DNA of 64,000 nucleotides from Ruminococcus flavefaciens (GTDB lineage Bacteria > Bacillota > Clostridia > Oscillospirales > Ruminococcaceae), in NCBI GenBank assembly GCA_902777125.1, contig CACYSQ010000001.1, forward strand, positions 216,744-280,743, written 5' to 3'. A program made the translations under genes and the position numbers. The notes beneath the pieces are model-generated. The model saw only the letters and a list, made by a program, of their open reading frames with translations, was not told where the DNA came from and ran no database searches. Below, piece by piece: positions 24,074 through 37,375 of the stretch. The first letter of the stretch is position 1. Each line of letters begins with the position of its first letter.

Positions 24074-24102
24074 TTGACATATTCGACGAAATAATATATA
24101 AT
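24074..24102 (+). promoter_or_regulatory. Promoter of the dockerin esterase gene
   Basis: TTGACA (24074-24079), 17 bases, TATAAT (24097-24102). Confidence 0.85.
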
Positions 24103-24137: not shown

Positions 24138-25424
24138 ATGAGAAAAAGAACATGGTTCACTTTTGCAGCCCTCATTCTTGCTGCGGCAGCCCTCGGTGCG
24201 ACCGCTCATGCTTCCGGAAACAGGTATACTGAGAAGGACCTTGTCTCCATGAGAAATTCCCTTCTCGGAAAAGCACCGCTGACCGAGGGTCAGGATGTGA
24301 ACGGTGACGGTCACGTTGATGTTTTCGATATGATTAGAATGAGACGGGGGCTGATCCTCACGGGAGATTTTTCTGTTAAATCATGCCCTGTTACAGAAGA
24401 TCATGTGAAATATACGGGCAGAAATTACTATAATAACGGTACTGTTTGGCTCGTCCAGAGCGGCTCTGCGATAGAGTTCAGCGTTGAGGCGAGGTCGGCG
24501 GAGATCACTCTCCGGGGCGAGATGGGTATGTCCGGCAGCAAGGATATGCGCCCGAGATACGCAGTTGTCGTTGACGGCGAGATAGTTCGCGATGATGTCC
24601 TGAACAGCACTGAGGAAACAGTCGAACTGTTCAGCGGCGAGGAGGTGCGATGCGCCTCCGTCAAGGTCATACACCTCTCAGAGGCAGCCAACGGTGCGGT
24701 GGGAGTTTCCGCGGTAACGGCGGACTGCTGCACAGATGAGCCGGTCACTCCGGCTGAGGAGAAAAAGCTCAGGATAGAGTTCATCGGCGATTCGATAACC
24801 TGCGGCTACGGAGTCGATGCTCCCTCGCAGTACGAGAGCTTCAGGACCACGACCGAGAATTTCATGAAGTCCTACGCCTACCTTGCAGCGGAAATGCTCG
24901 GTGCGGATTACAGTGCGGTGTGCTACAGCGGCTACGGTATTATTTCCGGATACACGCCCGACGGCACTAAAAATGCCGCAAACCTCGTTCCGGCGTACTA
25001 TGAGTGCTACGGCAGGGATTATCCCGCAAAATGGGACTTCTCCGCAAAGCTGAACGACGTCGTCATCATAAACCTCGGCACGAACGATTCCACATATATC
25101 GACAGAGATCCCGATTCAAGAGGTGCCGAATTCATAAAGGCTTACAGCGAATTCCTCACGACAGTGAGAAAAAATAACCCCGATGCCCATATCATCTGCA
25201 CCCTCGGTATCATGGGTGCGAGCAGCGAATACAAGATGATAGAGCAGGCGATAGCTGAATATAGGCAAGCTTCGGGCGACAGCAGGATATACTGCTATCA
25301 GGCGCCTGTTCAGGTCTCCGCGGACGGCTACGGTGCAGACTGGCACCCCTCGGCTGCCACTCAGGAGAAAAATGCCGGTATACTGGCGGAAAAGATACGT
25401 CAGGTGCTCGGCAGCGATAATTGA
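24138..25424 (+). CDS. Dockerin-bearing carbohydrate esterase, family CE2-like
   Basis: This secreted 428-residue enzyme probably removes acetyl groups from plant polysaccharides. A signal peptide ends near AHA-SG (residue 25). A dockerin follows directly (about residues 30-74), with a calcium-loop repeat DVNGDGHVDVFDMIRMRR; the first repeat is reduced. Then come a CE2-type beta-sandwich (about 85-212) and an SGNH hydrolase domain with nucleophile Ser219 in FIGDSITCGYG, NLGTNDS, and the catalytic Asp401/His403 in DWHPS. The dockerin implies docking to a cohesin, as in ruminococcal cellulosomes, but no cohesin lies in this window. ATG 24138 follows AAGGAGG. Confidence 0.9.
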   Translation: MRKRTWFTFAALILAAAALGATAHASGNRYTEKDLVSMRNSLLGKAPLTEGQDVNGDGHVDVFDMIRMRRGLILTGDFSVKSCPVTEDHVKYTGRNYYNNGTVWLVQSGSAIEFSVEARSAEITLRGEMGMSGSKDMRPRYAVVVDGEIVRDDVLNSTEETVELFSGEEVRCASVKVIHLSEAANGAVGVSAVTADCCTDEPVTPAEEKKLRIEFIGDSITCGYGVDAPSQYESFRTTTENFMKSYAYLAAEMLGADYSAVCYSGYGIISGYTPDGTKNAANLVPAYYECYGRDYPAKWDFSAKLNDVVIINLGTNDSTYIDRDPDSRGAEFIKAYSEFLTTVRKNNPDAHIICTLGIMGASSEYKMIEQAIAEYRQASGDSRIYCYQAPVQVSADGYGADWHPSAATQEKNAGILAEKIRQVLGSDN

Positions 25425-25471: not shown

Positions 25472-26299
25472 ATGTTCTGTAAAAAATGCGGCAAGCCCCT
25501 TGCGGACGGAGCAAGGTTCTGTCCGGGCTGCGGTACTCAGCAGCAGCCGCAGACAAACTATGGCGCACCGCCGCCGGTCAATCCCCAGCCTCAGCCGAAT
25601 TACGGCGCCCCTCAGGGCTATCCGCAGGCAAACTACGGGGCTCCCCAGCCTAGGTACGATTCACCGCCGCCGTATAATTACGGCAGACCTTCCGGCGGTC
25701 CGGGAGGAAGTCCGGGAGGCGCGTCAGATAATGCGAAAAATCTTATCCTGCTGACGGTCATTCTCGTGACGATAGGTCTCCTCATCGCAGGCATCTTCAA
25801 GGGTACTATGCTCAATATGGAGAGGCACGTTTACAAGGAAGACAGACGCAGCAGATATAGTGATGATTATACTAAAATCTATATACCGGGCACAATGGAT
25901 AACTCGTACTTTGCTATCATAAAGAACGATGGCTTCAGCGGTTTTTCAGATCAACTTGACAAAGAAGCCAAGGGTATGGAGGCATCAACAGCTTATACTG
26001 CACTCGGTATCGGTGCGATAATGGTAGTTCTGATGATAATTGCAGCTATACTCGGTCTCACCGGCAATTGCCGTACAGCAGGTATGCTTGCTGCTGTATC
26101 AGCTTTCATTTCGGCGCTGCCTCATATCATGTACATAATTCATGTGATATATTTAAAATCGAAGGATTGCGGAAGGATAAGCTTATCTTTCGTTCCTATG
26201 GGTATGATAGCGGCGGCTGTCATCATCGGTACTTTCTGTATAGTAGCAGCTAAGTCCATGAAGCAGACAACAGCCCCGGCGGCTGGAAATTGGAGGTGA
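25472..26299 (+). CDS. Zinc-ribbon membrane protein, tandem family member 1
   Basis: The 275-residue protein starts with CKKCGKPLADGARFCPGC, a CxxC-x10-CxxC zinc ribbon, then a Pro/Gln/Tyr/Gly-rich linker with repeated NYGAP (residues 24-88). Membrane helix 1 (about 95-118) is followed by an outside loop containing NDGFSGF, then helices 2 and 3 and a final helix near 245-265. The GFS motif and an IHVIYLKSK segment match the other members, but it is one of the more divergent. ATG 25472 has GGAGGG upstream. It opens a run of seven same-strand genes. No function is known. Confidence 0.85.
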   Translation: MFCKKCGKPLADGARFCPGCGTQQQPQTNYGAPPPVNPQPQPNYGAPQGYPQANYGAPQPRYDSPPPYNYGRPSGGPGGSPGGASDNAKNLILLTVILVTIGLLIAGIFKGTMLNMERHVYKEDRRSRYSDDYTKIYIPGTMDNSYFAIIKNDGFSGFSDQLDKEAKGMEASTAYTALGIGAIMVVLMIIAAILGLTGNCRTAGMLAAVSAFISALPHIMYIIHVIYLKSKDCGRISLSFVPMGMIAAAVIIGTFCIVAAKSMKQTTAPAAGNWR

Positions 26300-26304
26300 C
26301 GGCG

Positions 26305-26961
26305 ATGATTTGCAGCAGATGTGGTACAAATGTACCGAATGGTTCACCTGTTTGTCCGAGATGCGGCAATGCAATGGCTTATCAGCAGCCGCAGAATTAC
26401 GGTCAGCCCGCAGGCTACGGCGGTTATCCGCAGCCGGCATATGCTCCGCCTCCGGCAGCCTACAGAAGACCGAAGGCAGCTCCAAATGACAGCCCTCTTT
26501 CGTTCGTTCCGCTGTTTATGTTGATCATAGCGGTTTTTTCGTCACTCGGGATCTTCGCTATGCCTATTTGTAAATATGATCATGTGGATACTTGTCTCAA
26601 TATGTATCTTTCAGAATTTATCAGGGTCGGCGGCGATGAAATCGAATGTAAGTTCTTAAAGACTATGCTGATAGTCGGGCTTGTTGTAATAGGCATTACG
26701 GTTATCCTTGCGATAATCGCGGCAGTAATGGCAGGCAAGAGAAATGCTCCGGCGGCACTTAATGTGTGTGCAATAGCGCTTTTCCTGAATGCAGCAGCCT
26801 ATATCGCTAATTTTGCACTGTTCCTTCACACTAACGGTGACGACCATGACGACGAGGCTGATATGGCAGCCGCACCTATCGTCATGATACTGCTTTGCAT
26901 CGGTATGGCAATGCTTTCACTTTATGCAGCCCGTCTCGCAAAGCGCGAGGCAAATTCCTAA
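26305..26961 (+). CDS. Zinc-ribbon membrane protein, tandem family member 2
   Basis: The 218-residue protein has the ribbon CSRCGTNVPNGSPVCPRC (C-x2-C-x10-C-x2-C), a Tyr/Gln/Pro/Gly linker (residues 22-60) and four predicted membrane helices (about 65-87, 118-142, 148-175 and 188-210). The loop between helices 3 and 4 is acidic (HTNGDDHDDEAD). It starts five bases after member 1, with GGAGGTGA overlapping the end of that gene, so they are cotranscribed. It lacks the GF(T/S)KF loop motif. Confidence 0.85.
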   Translation: MICSRCGTNVPNGSPVCPRCGNAMAYQQPQNYGQPAGYGGYPQPAYAPPPAAYRRPKAAPNDSPLSFVPLFMLIIAVFSSLGIFAMPICKYDHVDTCLNMYLSEFIRVGGDEIECKFLKTMLIVGLVVIGITVILAIIAAVMAGKRNAPAALNVCAIALFLNAAAYIANFALFLHTNGDDHDDEADMAAAPIVMILLCIGMAMLSLYAARLAKREANS

Positions 26962-27095
26962 CCCCGCTTTTACGGTTCGTCAGAGCCGTGGATATAGCCG
27001 GCACCGGCAGGCTTCCAGCCGGTACATAAGCAATAAACCAAAATAATATTGAGACCGGCGGACAAGTCGGCTCAAAGAAAAGTGAGGAAAAAATT

Positions 27096-27809
27096 ATGGT
27101 ATGTAAGAATTGTGGACAGAATATCCCGGACGGTTCAAACACTTGTCCTTCATGCGGTGCAGCTCAGAATGCAGCTCCCGCTCAGAACGCAGCTCAGAAC
27201 TTCGGAAACGCAGTTAACAGCGGCATCAGCAGCATTGACAAGAACCTCCCGACAGTAAATATTGCCGGCAGAACAGTCAAGCTCAGCGTTATGAGCCTTG
27301 CTCCCGCTCTCATGATACTCTTCCTTATCATTGGTATGATAGGCGTATTCAGCTTCAATACAGCAAAGGTAAAGATGAAGATCACAGCAGGCAGCTATGG
27401 TTCTGCTTCTCATACAGAAAGATATTCGCTTTCCGACCTCGACAGCGATTCTCTCGATGAGATGGATGCAGGCTTTACAAAGTTTATCAAAGTAGTTAAC
27501 GTTATCGCTATCATCGCTTCTATCGGCGCTCTCGGTCTCTGCGGCTATATGACATACAAGAACGATACTGTAAAGGCTGTTCTTGCAGTAGGTCTCTCCG
27601 GTGCTATCCTTGCTCTGGCTTACTTACTTGATATAATCAACGGCTTCTACATAAAGGGCAAGTTCAAGGACATGTCAGAAGGTCTCTACAAGGTTTCCGG
27701 CGGTGCTTCCTTCGGCGGTATATTCTGGTTCATCATCATGGGCGCAATCGCTTTCGGCGCTTACACTATCTCCAACAAGGTAAAGGCTTCTCAGTCTGCT
27801 AAGGTTTGA
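27096..27809 (+). CDS. Zinc-ribbon membrane protein, tandem family member 3
   Basis: The 237-residue protein has the ribbon CKNCGQNIPDGSNTCPSC, a short Ala/Asn/Gln linker, a basic segment (GRTVKLSVMSLAP) before helix 1, the outside-loop motif DAGFTKF, the helix 3 exit INGFYIKGKF, the pre-helix 4 motif SGGASFGGIFWF, and helix 4. It is the clearest sibling of members 4 and 5, sharing LFLIIGMIGVFSF at helix 1. The start has GTGAGGAA upstream. The 134-base gap before it holds no gene. Confidence 0.85.
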   Translation: MVCKNCGQNIPDGSNTCPSCGAAQNAAPAQNAAQNFGNAVNSGISSIDKNLPTVNIAGRTVKLSVMSLAPALMILFLIIGMIGVFSFNTAKVKMKITAGSYGSASHTERYSLSDLDSDSLDEMDAGFTKFIKVVNVIAIIASIGALGLCGYMTYKNDTVKAVLAVGLSGAILALAYLLDIINGFYIKGKFKDMSEGLYKVSGGASFGGIFWFIIMGAIAFGAYTISNKVKASQSAKV

Positions 27810-27842
27810 TCTCTCTGAATTACCTTACATGAGGTGATAGAA

Positions 27843-28580
27843 ATGGTATGTAAAAACTGCAATTCACTCATGCCGGACGGTCTCGACAATTGCCCTAAAT
27901 GCGGAGCTGCTGTCAATCAGCAGCCTGAGGGATACGATCCCTTCGCTCAGAATACTCCTGCACAGCAGTATTACAATGCTCCCGCAGGAAGCGGCTCGAT
28001 AAACATCGGCGGCAAGGTCTACAGGCTTTCCTATCAGATGATACTTCCGGCAGTAATGGTGCTGTTCATCATCATCGGTATGTTCGGCGCATTCTCTTTC
28101 AAGACCGCAAAGTTAAAGTTCAAGACCACATGGGGCGGCAGCTCGGTAACGAGCGATGCCGTTAAATACAAGTTCTCGGACTGCACTGATGCAGACCTCG
28201 GCTTCTCGAAGTTTGCCAACGGCGTCTGCATTCTCTGCGATGTCGCAGCGGCAGCCGGACTTATCTACGTTGGATATACCCTTATGACGACCAAAAACGG
28301 TGTCAACGGTCTTAGAGCTATGGTCATACCGACAACGGCTATGCTGATATCGTTCATGTTCGTTATCTTCAATGCGTTCTATATCAAGGGCAAGATGAAT
28401 TCCATGCTCGGATTCAGCGATTCGGTAAAAGCAAAGGGCGGACCAACATTTATAACATGGTTCTTCTTTGCAGTGTTTGTTGCTTCAACAGCAGCCTGCC
28501 GCAAATTTGCCGAGCAGGTATCGGCGCGTAATCTTGCAGAAGCAGGACGCAGCGGAGGAAGCGGCAGCTACCGTTTATAA
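27843..28580 (+). CDS. Zinc-ribbon membrane protein, tandem family member 4
   Basis: The 245-residue protein has the ribbon CKNCNSLMPDGLDNCPKC, a Gln/Ala/Pro linker, a GGKVYRLSYQMILPA lead into helix 1 (LFIIIGMFGAFSF), the outside motif DLGFSKF, FNAFYIKGKM after helix 3, and KAKGGPTFITWFFF before helix 4. Sequence agreement with member 3 runs the full length, showing tandem duplication. ATG 27843 follows GAGGTGATA and lies 33 bases after member 3. Confidence 0.85.
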   Translation: MVCKNCNSLMPDGLDNCPKCGAAVNQQPEGYDPFAQNTPAQQYYNAPAGSGSINIGGKVYRLSYQMILPAVMVLFIIIGMFGAFSFKTAKLKFKTTWGGSSVTSDAVKYKFSDCTDADLGFSKFANGVCILCDVAAAAGLIYVGYTLMTTKNGVNGLRAMVIPTTAMLISFMFVIFNAFYIKGKMNSMLGFSDSVKAKGGPTFITWFFFAVFVASTAACRKFAEQVSARNLAEAGRSGGSGSYRL

Positions 28581-28603
28581 TTCTCAGAAAGGACGACATA
28601 ATT

Positions 28604-29479
28604 ATGTTTTGCAGATATTGCGGTACAAAGGTGCCTGACGGCTCTGCAAACTGTCCGGGCTGCGGAAAAGCCGTTGCCAATAAAGCACCGGCTTCTTCTG
28701 CTAACCCGTTCGCACAGAATCCCCAGCCTTTTAACAGCGCACAGAATTCTCCTTATCCGCAGAATACTCAGCCTTTTAACGGCACACAGAATTCACCCTA
28801 TCCGCAGAATGCTCCCGGACCGCAGGGCTATCCCCAGAATTATAATTACGGCGCACCAATGGGAGGAGCAGGCTTCGGTCCCGGCATGAATAATTTCGGC
28901 GGCGGACTTCCCTCGTTCAGGATAGGCAGAAGGACGATACAGCTCTCCGTTGGTCTGCTGCTCGTTCCGGTAATGATAATCTTCCTCATCATAGGAATGG
29001 TTGGCATCAACACCTTTGACACTGTAAAGCTGAAGGAAAAGGAATGGGGAGAAACAGTATCTATAAAGTTCAGTCTCTCCGACATTGATTTTGATGCTGA
29101 TGATTTTTTCCTTACCATGGTCGTTAAGATTCTTGCTATCATATGTATCTTCGGAACCATCGCCGTGCTTCTGCTTGGCATATACAAATTCATCAGGGCT
29201 GATGTAGAGAGTGCAGTGAAAATGGTCGGAGTTGCCGGTATTATCATGGCGATAGGCTATATGTTTACTATCATCAACGGCTTCTACATGAAGGGCGTAT
29301 TCAATGATGAAGGCGGTTCTAAAATCAAGGGCGGTGCTTCCATTACAGCATGGATATGGTTCCTGCTAATGGCTGCTGTCGCATTCGGAGCTTTCATTGT
29401 CTCTTCACAGGAGGAGCAGAAGCTCGCAATGAAGGCGGCTGAGGGTGAGAGAAATTCACGCTTCGGCAGCACATATTAA
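28604..29479 (+). CDS. Zinc-ribbon membrane protein, tandem family member 5
   Basis: The 291-residue protein has the ribbon CRYCGTKVPDGSANCPGC and a long linker (residues 24-100) with two copies of an FN(S/G)(A/T)QNSPYPQN repeat. The lead RRTIQLSVGLLLVP is followed by helix 1 (IFLIIGMVGINTF), a loop rich in Asp without a clear GF motif, INGFYMKGVF after helix 3, and KIKGGASITAWIWF before helix 4. It starts 23 bases after member 4 with GAAAGGA upstream, so the genes form one operon. Confidence 0.85.
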   Translation: MFCRYCGTKVPDGSANCPGCGKAVANKAPASSANPFAQNPQPFNSAQNSPYPQNTQPFNGTQNSPYPQNAPGPQGYPQNYNYGAPMGGAGFGPGMNNFGGGLPSFRIGRRTIQLSVGLLLVPVMIIFLIIGMVGINTFDTVKLKEKEWGETVSIKFSLSDIDFDADDFFLTMVVKILAIICIFGTIAVLLLGIYKFIRADVESAVKMVGVAGIIMAIGYMFTIINGFYMKGVFNDEGGSKIKGGASITAWIWFLLMAAVAFGAFIVSSQEEQKLAMKAAEGERNSRFGSTY

Positions 29480-29486
29480 TTAATGT

Positions 29487-29520
29487 TTCAAAGCGCGTAA
29501 GCGCAAAAAAATAAGAAAAA
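29487..29520 (+). other. Small GC hairpin between members 5 and 6
   Basis: GCGC-GTAA-GCGC followed by AAAAAAA lies past the stop of member 5. It is too short for a confident terminator on this strand. Confidence 0.3.
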
Positions 29521-29535
29521 GAGAGGTAATAGACT

Positions 29536-30441
29536 ATGTTTTGCACTAATTGTGGAAAAAGTATCCCCGATAATTCTGTAAACTGCCCGCTCTGCGGCGC
29601 AGCTACAGGCGCAGCTCCGGCACCTGCTCAGAACGCAGCTCCTGCCCCTGCTCCTGCTCCGACAGCAGCTCCTATGGGTGCTCCTGCTGCTCCTGCCGGT
29701 GCAGCTCCCCAGAATCTCTACGCTGCTCCTGCCGGCGCATACGGCCCCAGAAGCTCATTCAGCTTCAAGAGCCTTTTCGATGTTGAGAAGTTCGCTTTCA
29801 TTCCTGTTATCCTTATCGGCATCGTTATCACACTCATGATCTGGATGCACAGCCTTGACCTTGTCAACTGGAAGGTCAAGGGCTCAAGCATGGAGAGATC
29901 CAAGAGCACATATGATGCCTGCCTTGAGGGCTATGACACAGGCTTCACTTCCTTCATGAAGTTCTTCGGCGTTCTCACTGAGATCGGTGCATTTGCCGGC
30001 GTTATCATCGCTCTGCTCTATCTCAACAAGAACAACCTCAAGGCTGTCAAGTTCCTTGGCATCTCCATAATCTCAATGTGTGTCTCCTACATTTTCCTCT
30101 TTATCTACGGTCTCCACGTTATGGGCGAGATCAAGGACGGCAAGGGTATGGGTACCTCTGTCAAGACAAAGGGCGGCGTTACCGTTTCTATCATTCTTCT
30201 TATGATATTCACTCTTATCCTTGTTGTTTACTGGCTCTTTGCAGCTAAGATCATCAAGGTCGGCAACAGACCCAACTTCAACAACGGCTTCGGCTACGGT
30301 GCTCCCCAGCAGTTCGGCGGCGCTCCCCAGCAGCAGTTTGGTGCTCCTCAGAACTTCGGTGCTCCCCAGCAGCAGTTCGGTGCTCCTCAGAATACCGGTG
30401 CTCCCCAGAACTTCGGAACACCTCAGAATCCCGGTCAGTAA
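29536..30441 (+). CDS. Zinc-ribbon membrane protein, tandem family member 6
   Basis: The 301-residue protein has the ribbon CTNCGKSIPDNSVNCPLC, an Ala/Pro linker, helix 1 near residues 90-108, the outside motif DTGFTSF, IYGLHVMGEI after helix 3, KTKGGVTVSIILL before helix 4, and then a cytoplasmic tail made of repeated (F/N)GAPQ(Q) units (about residues 254-301). It is the only member with the low-complexity region at both ends. The ribosome site is GAGAGGTAA. It starts 56 bases after member 5. Confidence 0.85.
   Translation: MFCTNCGKSIPDNSVNCPLCGAATGAAPAPAQNAAPAPAPAPTAAPMGAPAAPAGAAPQNLYAAPAGAYGPRSSFSFKSLFDVEKFAFIPVILIGIVITLMIWMHSLDLVNWKVKGSSMERSKSTYDACLEGYDTGFTSFMKFFGVLTEIGAFAGVIIALLYLNKNNLKAVKFLGISIISMCVSYIFLFIYGLHVMGEIKDGKGMGTSVKTKGGVTVSIILLMIFTLILVVYWLFAAKIIKVGNRPNFNNGFGYGAPQQFGGAPQQQFGAPQNFGAPQQQFGAPQNTGAPQNFGTPQNPGQ
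30297..30438 (+). repeat. In-gene tandem repeat encoding GAPQ units
   Basis: GGTGCTCCCCAG/GGTGCTCCTCAG-type units recur about nine times at the 3' end of family member 6. Alternating unit lengths suggest growth by slippage or unequal exchange. Confidence 0.75.
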
Positions 30442-30461
30442 GAACCGGTCAGGAGTGAATC

Positions 30462-30959
30462 ATGAAAGCATCAATAAAGACTATTTTCCTTTCGGCGATA
30501 GTTGCAGTTCTTGTTGTATGCTTCTTCAAAATTGAGTTCATGAAGTTTGAGGCTCTCGGAAGTACCGAAGGTATCACTCTCAGCGAGGCCTGCAAGAATT
30601 CCGAATGGGAAGATATGGGCGAAAAAAAGGTCAGCAACGGCTTCTCAAAGTTTACAAGAGTTGTCGGCTTTATAGCAGCAGGTATCTCGATACTCTGCGT
30701 GATAGAGGCTCTTACTGAGGCTGACGACAAGAAGTCTACAGGCGCGATATGCGTTGCTGCCGGTGCAATGACGGCTGCTTACGGCTGCCTCACCGCAAAC
30801 GCTTTTATCCTCGGCAAGAATCTGAAAAATGCTCTCGAGGATTATTTAGGGCCGCTGGCATCGGTATTGAAGACCAGTCCGACGCCAACGTGCTACATAA
30901 TGCTTGTTTTAGCAGCAGGACTTCTGATTTTCACCTATAAGGATTCAAAGTCATACTAA
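30462..30959 (+). CDS. Small membrane protein, tandem family member 7 without zinc ribbon
   Basis: The 165-residue protein lacks the zinc ribbon and linker but has the same membrane layout: helix 1 (IFLSAIVAVLVVCFF), an outside loop ending NGFSKF, two helices, ANAFILGK after helix 3, and a last helix (YIMLVLAAGLLIFTY). The GFSKF motif and spacing place it in the family as a ribbon-less member. It begins 20 bases after member 6 with AGGAGTG upstream, and is followed by the vWA protein gene 89 bases later. Confidence 0.8.
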   Translation: MKASIKTIFLSAIVAVLVVCFFKIEFMKFEALGSTEGITLSEACKNSEWEDMGEKKVSNGFSKFTRVVGFIAAGISILCVIEALTEADDKKSTGAICVAAGAMTAAYGCLTANAFILGKNLKNALEDYLGPLASVLKTSPTPTCYIMLVLAAGLLIFTYKDSKSY

Positions 30960-31048
30960 ACTATAAGCCGAATATCAATTTTCGGGCAGCTCTGTTGATA
31001 ACGGCGGCTGCCCGCTTTTCTTTATTTTTTACCGGAAGGTGATGAACA

Positions 31049-34000
31049 ATGAGCAAGACCGGAAAGGTCACTGAAAAAGCCGCAAAGCGCGGCGGACTTC
31101 GTCTTCTCACATGGGTTATGATCGGAGTTATCGCCGTTACCACCTTTGTGGACATATTCTGCATATACAACCTTTTCAGCAGAAAGCCCTCCGATGTTCT
31201 TGCGGCGGACAATATGTCCCCCGTTGAGAAGGAGATAACGGAAGAGGCAAAGTCGGAGAAGATGAAGGCTGATGCTGTAAAGGCAAAGGGTGCAGTCTCT
31301 TACCGTTCCGCCGGATTGAAGGGAAATTCCGAGATCATAATCACTGACAGCTCGACTGCTCTTGAAGCGATAGAGTCTGTTTCGGACGAGCTCGGCATCG
31401 ACTCCCCGAGAGAGGAGTACACATACAAGAGGTATGATGAGGGCGGAGATTTCGATACCTATACCTTTCAGCAGACCAAGGAGGGTATCAATGTTGTCGG
31501 CTATGAGCTGAAGGTCAATGCCGGAAAAAGCGGCGAGATGATAAGCATTGTCGGAAACCATATCGACCTCTCAAATGCCGATACAACTTACCGTCTCTCT
31601 GACGGCGAGGCTGAAAGCTACGCCAAAAAGCGCATGAAGTCCGATTTTGAGGCTGACCCTGACGACTATCTGCTCCGTTCAGCCGGAAGATACATCACCA
31701 TTGACGAAAACGGTGATCCTCACGCTGCTTATGCTTATACGATCTCTGACCCTGTTACAAGAAATGTTGTCTATACCGTTTATGTTGATGCGGAGACAGG
31801 CAAGATAATAGAGTCAACGAACGAAAGCAGCAGTCAGCGTCCGAATTTCAGCACGGGCTACAGACGCAAAAACGAATATCTCTACGATGATATCCGCAAT
31901 ATCTACATTTTTGACAATTTCTCCGAGGACAGCGGCTTCGCACAGGCTACCGACATGAGCGTTGCGGCAAAGAAGCTCCTCGAACAGACCGTCAAGGCTT
32001 ACGATTTCTTTGACGACAACTACACAAGACATCTCAGCGGGTACTATCTCACGCTGTACAATGCCTCCGACCGTCAGCGCGGCTATCTCCGCAATGTGAT
32101 GATAGCAGACGAGCTGACTGTACGCTACTACGACGAAAACGGCGACGGATTTGCAGATCAGGCTTCAACCGCAGCGCTTTCGGACAATATTTCCCTCAAC
32201 AACATAAGCAAGGAATATGTAAAGGCTATCCTGCCTTATTCAATAACAGGCAATTCCGTGTTCTATATTGGTCTTTCAGACCTCTTTGCCGAGCTTATCG
32301 AGGACTATTCCGACGGCAGCTTCGATAATTCCTGCGATTGGATATCGGCTCCGGATCACAATGGCAATTCAAGGAATATAGCCGATCCTGCTGCTTCCGG
32401 CAACGCTGTTGGTATCGCGGATACAGCCGGCAGGACCTTCGGTCTTTCTTCCGATGAGCAGAACCACGACAGTACAGTGATCTCGCATACGGCTTACCGC
32501 ATGGTCAATGGCGTCGGCAATTTCGAGGCTCTTACCACTGAGCAGGTTTCCTACCTCTACTATATCTCGCTCACAGCAATGCCTGAGCGCATGACCTATG
32601 AGCAGTTCTGCGACATCATCATCACGAGTGCGATCGAGATGAACAGGACCTCCGCTAACGGCAAAAGAGGAAAGATCGCTCTTACAGACAGCCAGCTCAT
32701 GTGCGTGATAGCGGCATTTGACGAATCAGGTATCAGTACGTCCGGTGTCTGCCGCAGCATTCAGAAGGCCTACACAAACACGGCTGAATTCACGGTCTAT
32801 GACCACTCCTACGATACCTACTCCAACTATCACCTTACCGTTGTAAGGGTGAGCGATGGAACAAAGGTCATCGACAAGGACTGCACCTCCGAGAAATTTA
32901 CCCTCGAGGGCATCGACCCCGGTATCTACAGGATCTATGTTTCCGACAACAATAATCAGGGAATAACCTACTGCACCGGTGATATCCTCGTCGGCGGCGG
33001 AAGCTCCGAGGGCTATCTCACATCTGACAGGATATTCACGAAATTCGGTTCGTTACAGCGCTCAGTAGCCCTTGTTCTCGATGTTTCGGGAAGTATGGAC
33101 GGCGAGCCTATGAGGGAGACCAAGAGAGCTGCGGTCAAGTTCATTGACTACGTTCTCAGAGAGAACCCGACTATCGACATAAGCCTTATAACCTATTCAA
33201 ACAGCGCAACAACGAAAATGCTCTCAAGCAGCAATAGAGATGAGCTCGTTAATGCTGTCAACAGGCTCTCTGCTTACGGCGGCACTAATATGTACTCCGG
33301 TCTTGAGAGCGGTGAGGCTGCCCTTAAAACCTCGGCAGGTCAGAGGAAGCTCATGTTCGTGATGAGCGACGGCTTCCCGAATGACGGTCCTGTCGGCGAT
33401 GACGGCACTATCCCCAGTGCTATCAGGAAAAAGGCGGATCAGATCAAGGACAGCGGTGTCATCATCTACTCGCTCGGCTTCTTCCACGATTTCAGCGGTG
33501 CAAACGAGACAGTCTCAGATGCACAGCGCCTCATGAACAATATTGCTTCGCCGAGCTGTTCCTTCAATATCAAGGATACGAAGGAGCTTGAATTTGCTTT
33601 CGATGAACTCGCAGACAGCGTTGGCGGCAGCAGCAGCATCGTTGTAAGGATAGCCTGCCCCGTAGACGTTACAGTCAAGTGCGGCGGCGAGACTCTCAGC
33701 TCTGACCCCGATCAGCGCAGCACAAGAACCTCCTTCGGTTCACTTTCCTTTGAGGGTGACAACGACGAGATAAAGGTTCTCCGTCTCAACAACGAGCAGA
33801 ACTATGAGCTCTGTATCAACGGTACAGGCGAGGGCGAGATGGATTACTCCATAAGCTTCGCAAATGACGATGGCGACTATACCGACGTCCGTACCTTCAA
33901 GAGCGTACCGATAAGCTCTGATACGATAATTTCCACCAATACAAGGTCGTCCGGAAAGACCGAGCTGAACGTTGATACAGACGGTGACGGAAAGTTCGAC

Positions 34001-34723
34001 AAGACCTATGTTGCCGGCAAGAATGAGACTGCCAAGGAAAAGGGCAGGACCCTGAAGATAGTTCTCTGGATACTTGCAGCAGTTATATTTACCGGACTTC
34101 TTGCGGCTGAGCTCTATGTTGCCCACAGACGCAGCCAGAAGAACAAGGCCTGCGGAAAGTGCGGTGCTCCTATAGGTCCGGAGATGAAGTTCTGCCGTAC
34201 CTGCGGTGCGGAGGTGCATATCGTTCCGGTATGGTTCCCCGAGAGACCCAAGCGCGAGAAGCAGAAGCCTATCGTTATTACCGCAAAGCTCGTTACTATG
34301 GGCATCTGCCTGCTTATCACACTCAGCGTGGTAACGATATACCGTTCCGCAGCTTCGACCGTTTTCGACAAGATATGCGATCAGGAGCTTGTATCTGCGA
34401 AGATGCTCTACGACAGCGGCGTTGAGGATTCCGATGTTCAGAAGAAGTACCTCTCCATGCTGACAGAGCGCTACCTCAAGAAGGTGGAGAGCAAGCGCAA
34501 GGCTGGAGATTTCTCTGACGATGCGGCAAATTCCATCTACACAACTGTATTCGATATGGATATGGGCGATGCTTCCGACCTCGCGGAGGATTACCTCAGG
34601 GCGCAGGGCATTACACCTGTCCGCACTCCCAAGAAGGAGAAGAAGCAGGCTGCTACCGAGGAACAGCAGGGCTATGATCCGTATCAGGACTACGAGAATT
34701 ACTACAATTACTTCGGATATTGA
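31049..34723 (+). CDS. Membrane protein: degenerate M4 peptidase, vWA domain and zinc ribbon
   Basis: This 1224-residue protein starts with a membrane helix (about 19-43), then a propeptide-like FTP/PepSY region (about 103-255) and a thermolysin-like (M4) region (about 268-577). Where M4 enzymes have HExxH it reads KEYVK (near residue 388), and the NExxSD segment reads FYIGLSD, so the zinc site is lost. A Cna-B/PEGA-like strand region follows, then a vWA domain (about 668-850) with an intact MIDAS start DVSGS (Asp678). Helix 2 (about 1002-1024), the ribbon CGKCGAPIGPEMKFCRTC (about 1034-1051), helix 3 (about 1081-1100) and a Tyr-rich tail (YDPYQDYENYYNYFGY) complete it. The ribbon spacing equals that of the six upstream genes, which ties it to that cluster. 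The role is unknown. Confidence 0.85.
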   Translation: MSKTGKVTEKAAKRGGLRLLTWVMIGVIAVTTFVDIFCIYNLFSRKPSDVLAADNMSPVEKEITEEAKSEKMKADAVKAKGAVSYRSAGLKGNSEIIITDSSTALEAIESVSDELGIDSPREEYTYKRYDEGGDFDTYTFQQTKEGINVVGYELKVNAGKSGEMISIVGNHIDLSNADTTYRLSDGEAESYAKKRMKSDFEADPDDYLLRSAGRYITIDENGDPHAAYAYTISDPVTRNVVYTVYVDAETGKIIESTNESSSQRPNFSTGYRRKNEYLYDDIRNIYIFDNFSEDSGFAQATDMSVAAKKLLEQTVKAYDFFDDNYTRHLSGYYLTLYNASDRQRGYLRNVMIADELTVRYYDENGDGFADQASTAALSDNISLNNISKEYVKAILPYSITGNSVFYIGLSDLFAELIEDYSDGSFDNSCDWISAPDHNGNSRNIADPAASGNAVGIADTAGRTFGLSSDEQNHDSTVISHTAYRMVNGVGNFEALTTEQVSYLYYISLTAMPERMTYEQFCDIIITSAIEMNRTSANGKRGKIALTDSQLMCVIAAFDESGISTSGVCRSIQKAYTNTAEFTVYDHSYDTYSNYHLTVVRVSDGTKVIDKDCTSEKFTLEGIDPGIYRIYVSDNNNQGITYCTGDILVGGGSSEGYLTSDRIFTKFGSLQRSVALVLDVSGSMDGEPMRETKRAAVKFIDYVLRENPTIDISLITYSNSATTKMLSSSNRDELVNAVNRLSAYGGTNMYSGLESGEAALKTSAGQRKLMFVMSDGFPNDGPVGDDGTIPSAIRKKADQIKDSGVIIYSLGFFHDFSGANETVSDAQRLMNNIASPSCSFNIKDTKELEFAFDELADSVGGSSSIVVRIACPVDVTVKCGGETLSSDPDQRSTRTSFGSLSFEGDNDEIKVLRLNNEQNYELCINGTGEGEMDYSISFANDDGDYTDVRTFKSVPISSDTIISTNTRSSGKTELNVDTDGDGKFDKTYVAGKNETAKEKGRTLKIVLWILAAVIFTGLLAAELYVAHRRSQKNKACGKCGAPIGPEMKFCRTCGAEVHIVPVWFPERPKREKQKPIVITAKLVTMGICLLITLSVVTIYRSAASTVFDKICDQELVSAKMLYDSGVEDSDVQKKYLSMLTERYLKKVESKRKAGDFSDDAANSIYTTVFDMDMGDASDLAEDYLRAQGITPVRTPKKEKKQAATEEQQGYDPYQDYENYYNYFGY

Positions 34724-34774: not shown

Positions 34775-35830
34775 ATGCCTTTTACTATTATCAGAAACGA
34801 TATAACCAAGGTCAGGGCTGACGCTATCGTGAATGCCGCAAACAGCTCGCTTCTCGGCGGCGGAGGCGTTGACGGCGCAATACACTATGCGGCAGGTACC
34901 GGTCTGCTTGAAGAATGCAGGAAGCTCGGCGGCTGCAAGACCGGCGATGCCAAGCTCACAAAGGGCTACAAGCTCGACTGCAAGTACATAATCCACACGG
35001 TAGGTCCGGTATGGCATGGCGGCAGCAGGGGAGAGGAGGAGCTTCTCCGTTCATGCTACAGGCGTTCGCTCGAACTTGCAAAGGAAAACGGCTGCGAGAG
35101 CATTGCCTTTCCGCTGATATCCTCGGGCGTCTACGGCTATCCCAAGGACAAGGCGCTTGACGCGGCAGTTTCGGAGTTCAGGACATTCCTTGCCGGGAAC
35201 GAAATGGACATAACCCTCGTCATTTTCGACAGGGACGCCTTTGAGGTGAGCTCGGGCATAGTCGGCGAGATAAGGCAGTACATAAGCGATGCCTATGCAA
35301 AGGCTCATGACGACAGCGACAGGAAAAGGCTTGTTCAGGCTTCGTACATGGGCTCTGCAATGGCTTCGAGACCGGCAGAAAAGCCCTCCGGGATAAAGGG
35401 ACTGTTCCACCGCAAGACATTGGACGAATGTGCTAACGCGCTGGAGGAGTATTACTGTGAGGAGAGCATCGAGGATATCCTCCGCGAGAGGGACGAGTCC
35501 TTTTCGCAGGCGCTTCTAAGGCTCATCGACGAAAAGGGCATGACCGATGTTGAGACCTACAAGAAGGCAAATATCGACCGCAAGCTCTTCTCGAAGATAA
35601 GGAGCGACAGCGGCTATAAGCCGAAAAAACAGACCGTTCTCGCTTTTGCGATAGCCCTTGAGCTTGACCTCAGCGAAACGGAGAAGCTTCTCGAAAGGGC
35701 AGGCTATGCGCTTTCCGGGAGCATCAAGTTCGACCTGATAGTCCGCTACTTTATCGAGCGGCATAACTACGATATCTTCGAGATAAACGAAACGCTTTTC
35801 GCGTTCGACCAGTCCTTGATAGGAGCTTGA
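34775..35830 (+). CDS. Macro-domain protein with C-terminal helical domain
   Basis: The 351-residue protein has an N-terminal macro domain (residues 1-165): [27 protein letters not shown], then [13 protein letters not shown], the ADP-ribose binding pattern of the MacroD/YmdB type. It could hydrolyse or bind ADP-ribose or O-acetyl-ADP-ribose. The C-terminal part (about 205-351) is an all-helical domain ([19 protein letters not shown] ... [19 protein letters not shown]) that resembles a helix-turn-helix-like module found fused to varied proteins in gut clostridia. GGAGGTG precedes the ATG. It lies 50 bases past the vWA gene and could share its transcript. Confidence 0.85.
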
Positions 35831-36676: not shown

Positions 36677-37375
36677 ATGAAAAAGAATTTAACTGAGCTC
36701 GTATTCATTCTCGACGAAAGCGGATCTATGGCAGGTCTCACAGCGGATACTATCGGCGGCTTCAATTCCCTCATCGACAAGCAGAAGAATGAGGAGGGCG
36801 AGGCTTTCGTAACAACGGTTTTCTTCAGCAACGAGTCCAAGACCGTTCACGACAGGCTTCCCGTTGGGGAGGTGCCTAAACTCACCAATAAGGAGTACGT
36901 TCCCTCGGGCTGCACAGCACTTCTCGATGCAGTAGGCGACACTATCCGCCATATCGCCGATATCCACAAGTACGCCCGCGAGGAGGACAGACCTGAGAAG
37001 ACCCTGTTCGTCATCACCACAGACGGCATGGAGAATGCAAGCCGGAGGTTCACTCAGCGCGAGATCAAGAAGATGATAACAAAGGAGCAGGAGGAATACG
37101 GCTGGGAGTTCCTGTTCCTCGGTGCGAACATCGACGCTGCTGAAACAGCGGATTCAATGGGCATTCGCGCTGAAAATGCGGTTGAGTACCACTCCGACTG
37201 CGAGGGTACGAACGTACTCTATGAGGCAGTCGGCTGTGCGGTAAGCAGCATGAGGTCCGCGAAGTGCGTAGGCAAGGCGTGGAGGAAATCCGTTGAGGCT
37301 GATAACGAAAGACGCAGCAGCGAAAATGCTCCTGCTAAGGAAAAGAAGGGACGCTTCGGCATATTCGGCAAATAA
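36677..37375 (+). CDS. Cytosolic von Willebrand A domain protein
   Basis: The 232-residue protein is a single vWA domain (residues 5-195) with the complete MIDAS pattern: DESGSM near residue 14, SGCTAL near 83 and TTDGMENAS near 118. The C-terminus is a short basic tail (KEKKGRFGIFGK). No signal or membrane segment is present, so it is likely soluble and resembles the TerY-like vWA proteins. The start is ATG 36677 with GGAGG upstream. It is not part of the long cluster but lies 2 kb from it. Its partner is unknown. Confidence 0.85.
   Translation: MKKNLTELVFILDESGSMAGLTADTIGGFNSLIDKQKNEEGEAFVTTVFFSNESKTVHDRLPVGEVPKLTNKEYVPSGCTALLDAVGDTIRHIADIHKYAREEDRPEKTLFVITTDGMENASRRFTQREIKKMITKEQEEYGWEFLFLGANIDAAETADSMGIRAENAVEYHSDCEGTNVLYEAVGCAVSSMRSAKCVGKAWRKSVEADNERRSSENAPAKEKKGRFGIFGK

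Follow-up and report, generated by a model that had tools for sequence, protein, structure and literature searches.

A tandem array of ribbon-bearing tetraspan genes beside a predicted vWA pseudoprotease in Ruminococcus flavefaciens: a candidate envelope assembly with a possible claudin-like fold

Why would a bacterium encode seven small, variant membrane proteins in a row, next to a 1224-residue protein with a von Willebrand factor type A (vWA) domain? The question is raised by a 64,000-nt stretch of Ruminococcus flavefaciens DNA (GCA_902777125.1, contig CACYSQ010000001.1, 216,744-280,743 forward), here called the window. The original prediction, made from the letters alone, described seven consecutive genes for small membrane proteins on the + strand, here m1-m7, followed by the gene of the large protein, here the giant; the open reading frames (ORFs) are as stated, and each small product has four transmembrane (TM) helices by hydropathy. 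An acetylesterase gene of the CE2 type upstream of the array, a thermolysin-like region in the giant and a claudin-like fold were absent from that prediction. Judged by sequence, the locus is a set of paralogous tandem tetraspan genes lying in conserved order between the CE2 gene and the giant, whose catalytic motif is lost and whose metal ion-dependent adhesion site (MIDAS) is kept. A plausible though still tentative reading is that tetraspans, giant and esterase make up one envelope assembly.

When all six frames were scanned for ORFs of >=80 residues, CxxC-x10-CxxC was found in exactly seven products of the window, namely m1-m6, as had been claimed, and the giant, where it lies in a loop predicted to be cytoplasmic; the motif is absent from m7. 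For the giant and for m1-m3, m5 and m6, the ribbon matched the Pfam family Zn_Ribbon_1. For PF13240, m1, m3 and m6 scored above the cut-off in the protein scan, with m2, m5 and the giant below it and no match for m4, and in the genome search m1, m2, m3, m5, m6 and the giant were above the cut-off with m4 not listed. By motif, m1-m6 and the giant all carry a PF13240-type zinc ribbon, and zinc binding is predicted. Because the ribbons match a common family, with 43 places in the whole genome (E <= 0.1), equal ribbon spacing alone is not unusual. The linkers of m1-m6 consist to 57-92% of P, Q, A, N, G or Y. The shared motifs of the prediction, GF(T/S)KF, NGFY(I/M)KG and K-x-(K/S)GG-x-(S/T), are present as named: inspection by eye placed GFTKF in m3, GFSKF in m4 and m7, GFTSF in m6 and GFSGF in m1, GFxxF being missing from m2 and m5; NGFYIKG in m3, NGFYMKG in m5 and the variant NAFYIKG in m4; and KVSGGAS, KAKGGPT, KIKGGAS and KTKGGVT in m3-m6, respectively.

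When m3 was searched against 60 relatives, 22 genomes gave matches; many of these covered little besides the ribbon, and later profiles were therefore ribbon-free. A first single-protein scan of genome contigs found no relative; the alignment-based scan did find relatives. With ribbons removed and class-preserving shuffles as the reference, z was 9.7-29.5 for the six core pairs within m3-m6 and -0.3 to 6.5 for the remaining 15. Ribbon-free profile comparison with hhalign joined the m1/m2 type to the m3-m6 type at probability 97.3 and the m7 type to the m3-m6 type at 97.4 (reversed controls 0.5-0.8), the m7 type against the m1/m2 type giving only 23.7 (control 0.4). Further links, with E-values valid only within a set of 33 cores, came from other genomes, which are named here by handles such as G250: the single tetraspan of G148 was matched by m1 (1e-9) and m2 (6e-11), m6 matched the G206 tetraspan at 4e-13, and m7 has its orthologue in G250_6 (1e-33), a protein that itself matches m3 (1e-6). 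From this similarity above chance, m1-m7 are judged to be one family, and the profile matches, with their clean reversed controls, refute the possibility that its members are unrelated.

No model scored above its cut-off on the four-helix core among the best 25 of 102 Pfam and the best 25 of 40 NCBIfam families for 22 members. DUF4293 (PF14126) gave a weak match to the core of m2 alone (residues 70-206, E 0.0046, 17.6 bits), below its 27-bit cut-off and with a model that lacks the ribbon. The TcaA/YvbJ-type proteins resemble the array proteins in placing a ribbon before a TM segment (NF053815 teico_TcaA was matched by five of the 22 members, best E 0.0012), and differ in architecture, since their N-terminal ribbon precedes a single TM segment and extracellular domains, in contrast to the four TM helices of the array proteins.

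In the giant, Pfam found FTP (3.3e-5) above the cut-off and VWA, with PepSY, M4_C (3.6e-4) and the ribbon below their cut-offs; M4_C was above the cut-off in the G250 giant (2.6e-6) and without a match at 0.01 in that of G219. A profile of nine giants matched pro-thermolysin 5a3y at E 1.2e-30 over profile positions 120-589, and thermolysin was Foldseek match 49 of the giant's poor structural model. An FTP propeptide followed by an M4 region is common to the giant and the M4 metallopeptidases, the giant differing in the loss of HExxH and in the vWA domain, ribbon and TM segments that follow the M4 part. The window giant reads KEYVK instead of HExxH and YIGLSD instead of NEGxAD, so that the M4 zinc site is missing. 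HExxH is kept, as HEYTH or HEYGH, in six of 11 giants (G162, G239, G244, G113, L115 and L116) and lost in those of the window, G250, G275, G219 and G071. With this M4-like active site gone, the giant is predicted to be a pseudoprotease, not a protease. The MIDAS motif DxS(G/Y)SM is present in 11/11 giants, and the vWA domain of the window giant shows the fold and the complete site (DxSxS...T...D) with DVSGS, GGTN and MSDG aligned. The four Cys of the ribbon are invariant across nine giants.

Known proteins resemble parts of the giant. The vWA pilus-tip adhesins PilB and SpaC were the top Foldseek matches of its model, presumably via the vWA region, and Mfa5 was in the same list and also matched in sequence over the vWA domain; the giant differs in being no pilin and in being membrane-anchored near both ends, and its model is poor. 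The archaeal ArnA-ArnB pair (8s05) unites a ribbon protein with a vWA protein, chain A matching the vWA part of the giant profile at 4.3e-10 and chain C its ribbon part at 0.0055. ArnA-ArnB is soluble and cytoplasmic, whereas in the giant the membrane is predicted to separate the vWA domain from the ribbon.

Between the window and G250, the dead M4-like domain showed dN/dS (nonsynonymous to synonymous substitution rates) of 0.11 at a dS of 2.08, near saturation, and seems to be under constraint. For the other dead pair, G275 and G219, dN/dS was 0.31, and constraint is not demonstrated because the changes are very few (dS 0.04). A descent of the giant from a membrane protease that once processed its tetraspan partners or controlled them, and that with its active site gone became their pseudoprotease chaperone or trap, comparable in principle to the iRhom pseudoproteases, would suit the loss of HExxH in all four array-bearing giants, its retention in the six listed above and the value of 0.11. 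Such an origin is nevertheless quite improbable: the array-bearing giants, four in number, fall into a single clade of the tree (100/100), so that array and dead protease coincide through one event; the site was lost a second time in G071, which has no array; the second pair gave 0.31; and tetraspans as substrates have no support. A repeated trend linking arrays to dead proteases was likewise rejected, there being one branch and the counter-example G071.

The M4-like region looks as if it has its own history, with exchange of the cassette by recombination. In the giants of G162 and G239 (L080 4654-8328, L081 3982-7665) it is 58% identical at a dS of 1.25, the vWA domain being 99% identical at a dS of 0.25; between those of G275 and G219 (L078/L079) its dS is 0.04, against 0.54-1.59 in the seven other regions.

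How often array and giant occur together was surveyed in 125 genomes of the genus, a giant being counted if full-length and a small-gene hit being of the m3-m6 type at E <= 0.01. Full-length giants were found in 7/125 and small-gene hits in 14/125; both occurred in four genomes, always adjacent (window, G250, G275, G219), with three having only the giant, ten only the small genes and 108 neither. Fisher's test gave p 0.003 for this co-occurrence with kinship ignored, and 5e-5 when only the six strongest small-gene genomes were counted, a cut chosen after the hits were known and again ignoring kinship. That the small genes never lie beside the vWA gene, which would have spoken against the original prediction, is refuted by their adjacency in G250, G275 and G219. 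The number of small genes between a correspondingly placed CE2 gene and the giant is 0 in G162, 0 in G239 (where the CE2 gene is cut off by the contig end), 1 in G275, 2 in G219, 6 in G250 and 7 in the window; one of the two in G219 encodes 398 residues with a ribbon and seven predicted TM segments, its two halves matching m1 and m2. Gene order is conserved between the window and G250, including the ribbon-less m7 beside the giant.

A copy number of 0 to 7 among related genomes, with members that are small, membrane-bound and divergent, would also fit variant proteins for self-protection, conferring immunity to neighbours' envelope-active toxins or bacteriocins. This explanation is very improbable, as PADLOC models of anti-phage defence systems matched none of the ten locus proteins (0/10 at E <= 0.01), no toxin or bacteriocin gene was noticed among the listed neighbours (no bacteriocin search was run), and five orthologue pairs of small genes are kept at dN/dS 0.16-0.24. 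In the same five pairs, m3 was the one member whose loop 1 had changed clearly more than its TM segments, and the idea that loop 1 is a rapidly evolving ligand surface was rejected.

CE2 genes are common, occurring in 107/125 genomes of the genus. A ribbon tetraspan gene lies directly 3' of the CE2 gene in 8 of the best 30 CE2 loci, to which G206 and G274 add two, and no full-length giant was found in six of these ten CE2-tetraspan genomes (G148, G171, G220, G252, G206 and G274), several of the six being incomplete (G148 79%, G252 85%). Beyond the genus, two further near-full-length giants turned up among 148 genomes of the family, in G071 and G113, and an order-level sample of 394 genomes (E <= 1e-60) gave the window and three matches to the vWA part. 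The G244 giant sits in other surroundings, and L116 is a short contig, uninformative on neighbours.

A second tandem array in the same genome (L234 9596-14001, i.e. G000:C3:97595-102000) encodes proteins with ribbon, linker and four TM helices, four with a ribbon and one without, several having acidic first loops; further single ribbon-tetraspan copies lie in L234, L239 and L243. No vWA gene was seen beside the second array or the single copies among the listed ORFs, judged by their first residues alone. Profiles of the second array and the window family matched at probability 99.4 with ribbons and at 87 when only the cores were compared (14 and 22 in the reversed controls). Because the second array matches by profile and has no vWA gene beside it, the ribbon tetraspans probably form one larger family, of which the vWA protein would be a partner of some members at most. 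Another ribbon-tetraspan group of the genus was noticed in L038, L040, L044 and L051; the cores from L038, L040 and L044, taken as a profile, matched the second array at probability 94 (control 1.6), and in L038 and L051 the adjoining gene resembles that of a signal peptidase.

These results bear on whether the neighbours act together at all. Ribbon tetraspans found genus-wide may simply duplicate easily in tandem and have done so here by chance with an old esterase gene on one side and a vWA gene on the other, every part acting by itself; the second array without a vWA gene, the six esterase-tetraspan loci without a giant and a hairpin ahead of the giant gene would fit such independence. This is a real possibility, if a somewhat doubtful one, given the order shared by the window and G250 with m7 by the giant, the array beside the giant in four genomes, the ribbon in the giant too and the enrichment described above. 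One envelope assembly is kept as a tentative reading, and several points weigh against it: giants without an adjacent tetraspan gene (G162, G239, G244, G071, G113, L115), the giant-less loci and the second array, the G071 loss and the G275/G219 comparison, and a poor giant model (pLDDT 54, pLDDT being the predicted local distance difference test). The single membrane complex of the original prediction is possible, not established: its adjacency in four genomes and its shared ribbon stood, and the six loci without a giant, three giants without an array, the second array and the hairpin did not agree with it.

In the proposed assembly, the ribbons would be cytoplasmic and would act as common tags for docking to one another or to a cytoplasmic partner that all of them share, and the tetraspans would be lateral membrane subunits of the claudin or TARP type. 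The giant would be a ligand-binding receptor whose MIDAS-bearing vWA domain binds a surface or polysaccharide ligand, its dead protease domain being kept as a binding scaffold, and the esterase would act outside, next to the giant, on acetylated polysaccharide.

The suggestion of claudin-type subunits comes from an AlphaFold2 model of m3, built from an alignment of 8 sequences with pLDDT 73 and a predicted template modelling score (pTM) of 0.63, which has helices at residues 65-86, 126-154, 158-193 and 206-236 and strands at 88-96, 105-111 and 198-204. Foldseek against the PDB returned 255 matches at E <= 10, and the best 50 of the 255 (best E 2.7e-3, probability 0.97-1.00, TMt up to 0.60) were by title claudins, TARP or AMPA receptor-TARP complexes, a Cav1.1 complex and GARLH4 complexes. 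Hydropathy and the model indicated four TM helices and internal N- and C-termini, as in claudins, with sidedness read from charges by eye. In our placement the shared motifs fall on the outer membrane face of the model, GFxKF opening TM2, FYxKG closing TM3 and KxxGG lying on the loop-2 strand before TM4. The tetraspan core may thus have claudin topology in its TM order and in the strands of loop 1 and loop 2, as supported by one model. The array proteins share with the claudin superfamily (claudins, TARPs, Cav gamma, LHFPL/GARLH) the predicted four TM helices and internal termini and, if the m3 model is right, would share the extracellular strands in loops 1 and 2; they differ in being bacterial, in the N-terminal zinc ribbon and linker, and in having no detectable sequence similarity. 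To our knowledge, the claudin fold has been described only from eukaryotes.

Several results argue against the fold. Foldseek gave zero matches at E <= 0.001 and, for the best 50, TM-scores by query of 0.34-0.48; residues 91-130 of the model have block pLDDT of 61-67; and the likeness comes from one moderate model with an alignment of eight sequences. No claudin or TARP was matched at sequence level among 48 (profile A7) and 33 (profile A8) PDB sequences to E 10, and no claudin family was among the best 25 of 102 (A7) and best 25 of 46 (A8) Pfam families. W...GLW-C-C, which we take to be the claudin loop-1 signature, was sought by eye in 22 aligned tetraspan sequences (A7), and its GLW-C-C was not seen. 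The second array shows a PW at the end of TM1 that is invariant in the alignment (8/8 proteins), near the position of the claudins' conserved W.

An animal parallel would be the Cav1.1 complex 5gjv, in which a claudin-fold gamma subunit shares a complex with a vWA protein, as proposed for the array; 5gjv appeared in both match lists, through chain E for m3 in Foldseek and, weakly (E 0.0077), through chain F, alpha-2/delta-1, for the giant profile. It is unlikely, on balance, that the array represents a bacterial lineage of the claudin superfamily with cytoplasmic zinc ribbons, whose Ruminococcus arrays supply variant subunits assembling laterally around a vWA pseudoprotease receptor. If true, a claudin-like fold in bacterial tandem arrays would move the origin of the fold back to bacteria, and the arrays would offer a simple system for the sideways assembly of claudin-like proteins.

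As an observation, the array was confirmed as real and above chance, and, in agreement with the original prediction, no named family or system corresponding to it was found in the libraries searched. A literature search, covering titles and abstract openings for part of the matches with subscription papers mostly outside reach, gave no account of this system or of a bacterial claudin-like family. The stronger novelty would be the combination of a claudin-like fold and a zinc ribbon in bacterial arrays, as suggested by one moderate model. The natural series of 0, 0, 1, 2, 6 and 7 copies between CE2 gene and giant would allow subunit number to be studied directly, as would orthologous M4 domains with the active site kept or lost for catalytic loss, and the locus suggests a candidate function for ribbon-tagged membrane proteins, which are numerous in this genome.

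The features of the locus are collected in Table 1.

Table 1. Features of the locus; positions are those of the window
Feature	Position	Strand	Basis
Sigma-70-like promoter TTGACA-17-TATAAT, 5' of the esterase gene	24074..24102	+	12/12 consensus match, pattern match alone
Acetylesterase (GDSL, CE2 type), hydrophobic N-terminal segment, short dockerin-like segment; conserved on the left of the array	24138..25424	+	CE2_N 1.1e-11, Lipase_GDSL_2 3e-15, synteny
m1: zinc ribbon, P/Q/N/G/Y-rich linker, 4 TM	25472..26299	+	G250 orthologue, core 51% identical
m2: zinc ribbon, linker, 4 TM	26305..26961	+	G250 orthologue, core 56% identical
m3: zinc ribbon, linker, 4 TM; model with claudin-like fold	27096..27809	+	G250 orthologue, core 75% identical
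m4: zinc ribbon, linker, 4 TM	27843..28580	+	Ribbon by motif; DZR only at 0.0074
m5: zinc ribbon, long linker, 4 TM	28604..29479	+	Pfam, hydropathy
m6: zinc ribbon, linker, 4 TM, C-terminal GAPQQ repeats	29536..30441	+	G250 orthologue, core 71% identical
m7: 4 TM, no ribbon	30462..30959	+	G250 orthologue, 42% identical
Terminator-like hairpin between array and giant, then T-rich tract to 31030	30983..31014	+	Folding vs shuffles
Giant (1224 aa): TM - FTP/PepSY - M4-like - strand-rich immunoglobulin (Ig)-like part - vWA - beta domain - TM - zinc ribbon - TM - helical tail	31049..34723	+	
Giant: thermolysin HExxH position, here KEYVK (residues 388-392), active site lost	32210..32224	+	Nine-giant alignment, eleven-giant motif scan
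Giant: vWA domain with DxSGS MIDAS motif	33041..33622	+	PF00092 7.1e-20
Giant: zinc ribbon in predicted cytoplasmic loop, TM2-TM3	34145..34216	+	PF13240 7.1e-5 (below cut-off in protein scan, above in genome search)

The esterase gene ends 47 bp before m1, and its product also matched Dockerin_1 and AxeC2 (1.4e-33), both below cut-off. From the esterase gene to m7 the gaps are 5-134 bp, and transcription may be joined over this stretch, with the giant partly set apart by the hairpin and T-run at 30983-31030. The 96-nt stretch holding the hairpin had z -2.7, with 3/200 shuffles as stable, and hairpins were seen by eye at the same place in G250, G275 and G219. Promoter pattern sites numbered 24 in the region, against 13.9 expected.

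Proteins with the giant's beta domain (this label and Ig-like part are our own) carry a ribbon internally (11 giants), at the N-terminus (L117, L121, G572) or in an adjacent ribbon-TM gene (L117, L118, L121, G054); in L120 a soluble ribbon gene lies two genes away from the beta-domain gene, and no ribbon was found within three genes, where the contig allows, in L119 (= G359), L122, L123, L176, G607, G288, G246, G218 and G272. The coupling of ribbon and vWA recurs, a point in favour of the assembly, without being universal. In Atopobiaceae, L121 9091-14689 holds in a row a ribbon-4TM gene, a ribbon-TM-M4(HEMTH)-vWA-TM gene and a ribbon-TM gene; the first was rejected as a relative of the array family, since hhalign gave probability 0.2 (controls 0.4 and 2.9), the same layout with no detectable homology. 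In G054 (L033 11196-13767) a vWA-TM protein, with an N-terminal part that is presumably C-type lectin-like, stands before a ribbon-TM gene of its own, as if the giant's C-terminal part had been split.

Rfam matched four tRNAs only in the window and nothing in the m2-m3 gap (26962-27095). This gap is strongly structured (26955-27096, z -4.35), and G250 has elements that look similar. Downstream of the giant, a macro-domain gene at 34775-35830 (NF001664 above cut-off, C-terminal part unnamed) was dropped from the locus, none having been seen beside the giant in G250, where ORF starts alone were viewed and no macro search was made. It is followed by one opposite-strand ORF and then by a small gene, 36677-37375, which reads like a stand-alone vWA protein (DESGSM).

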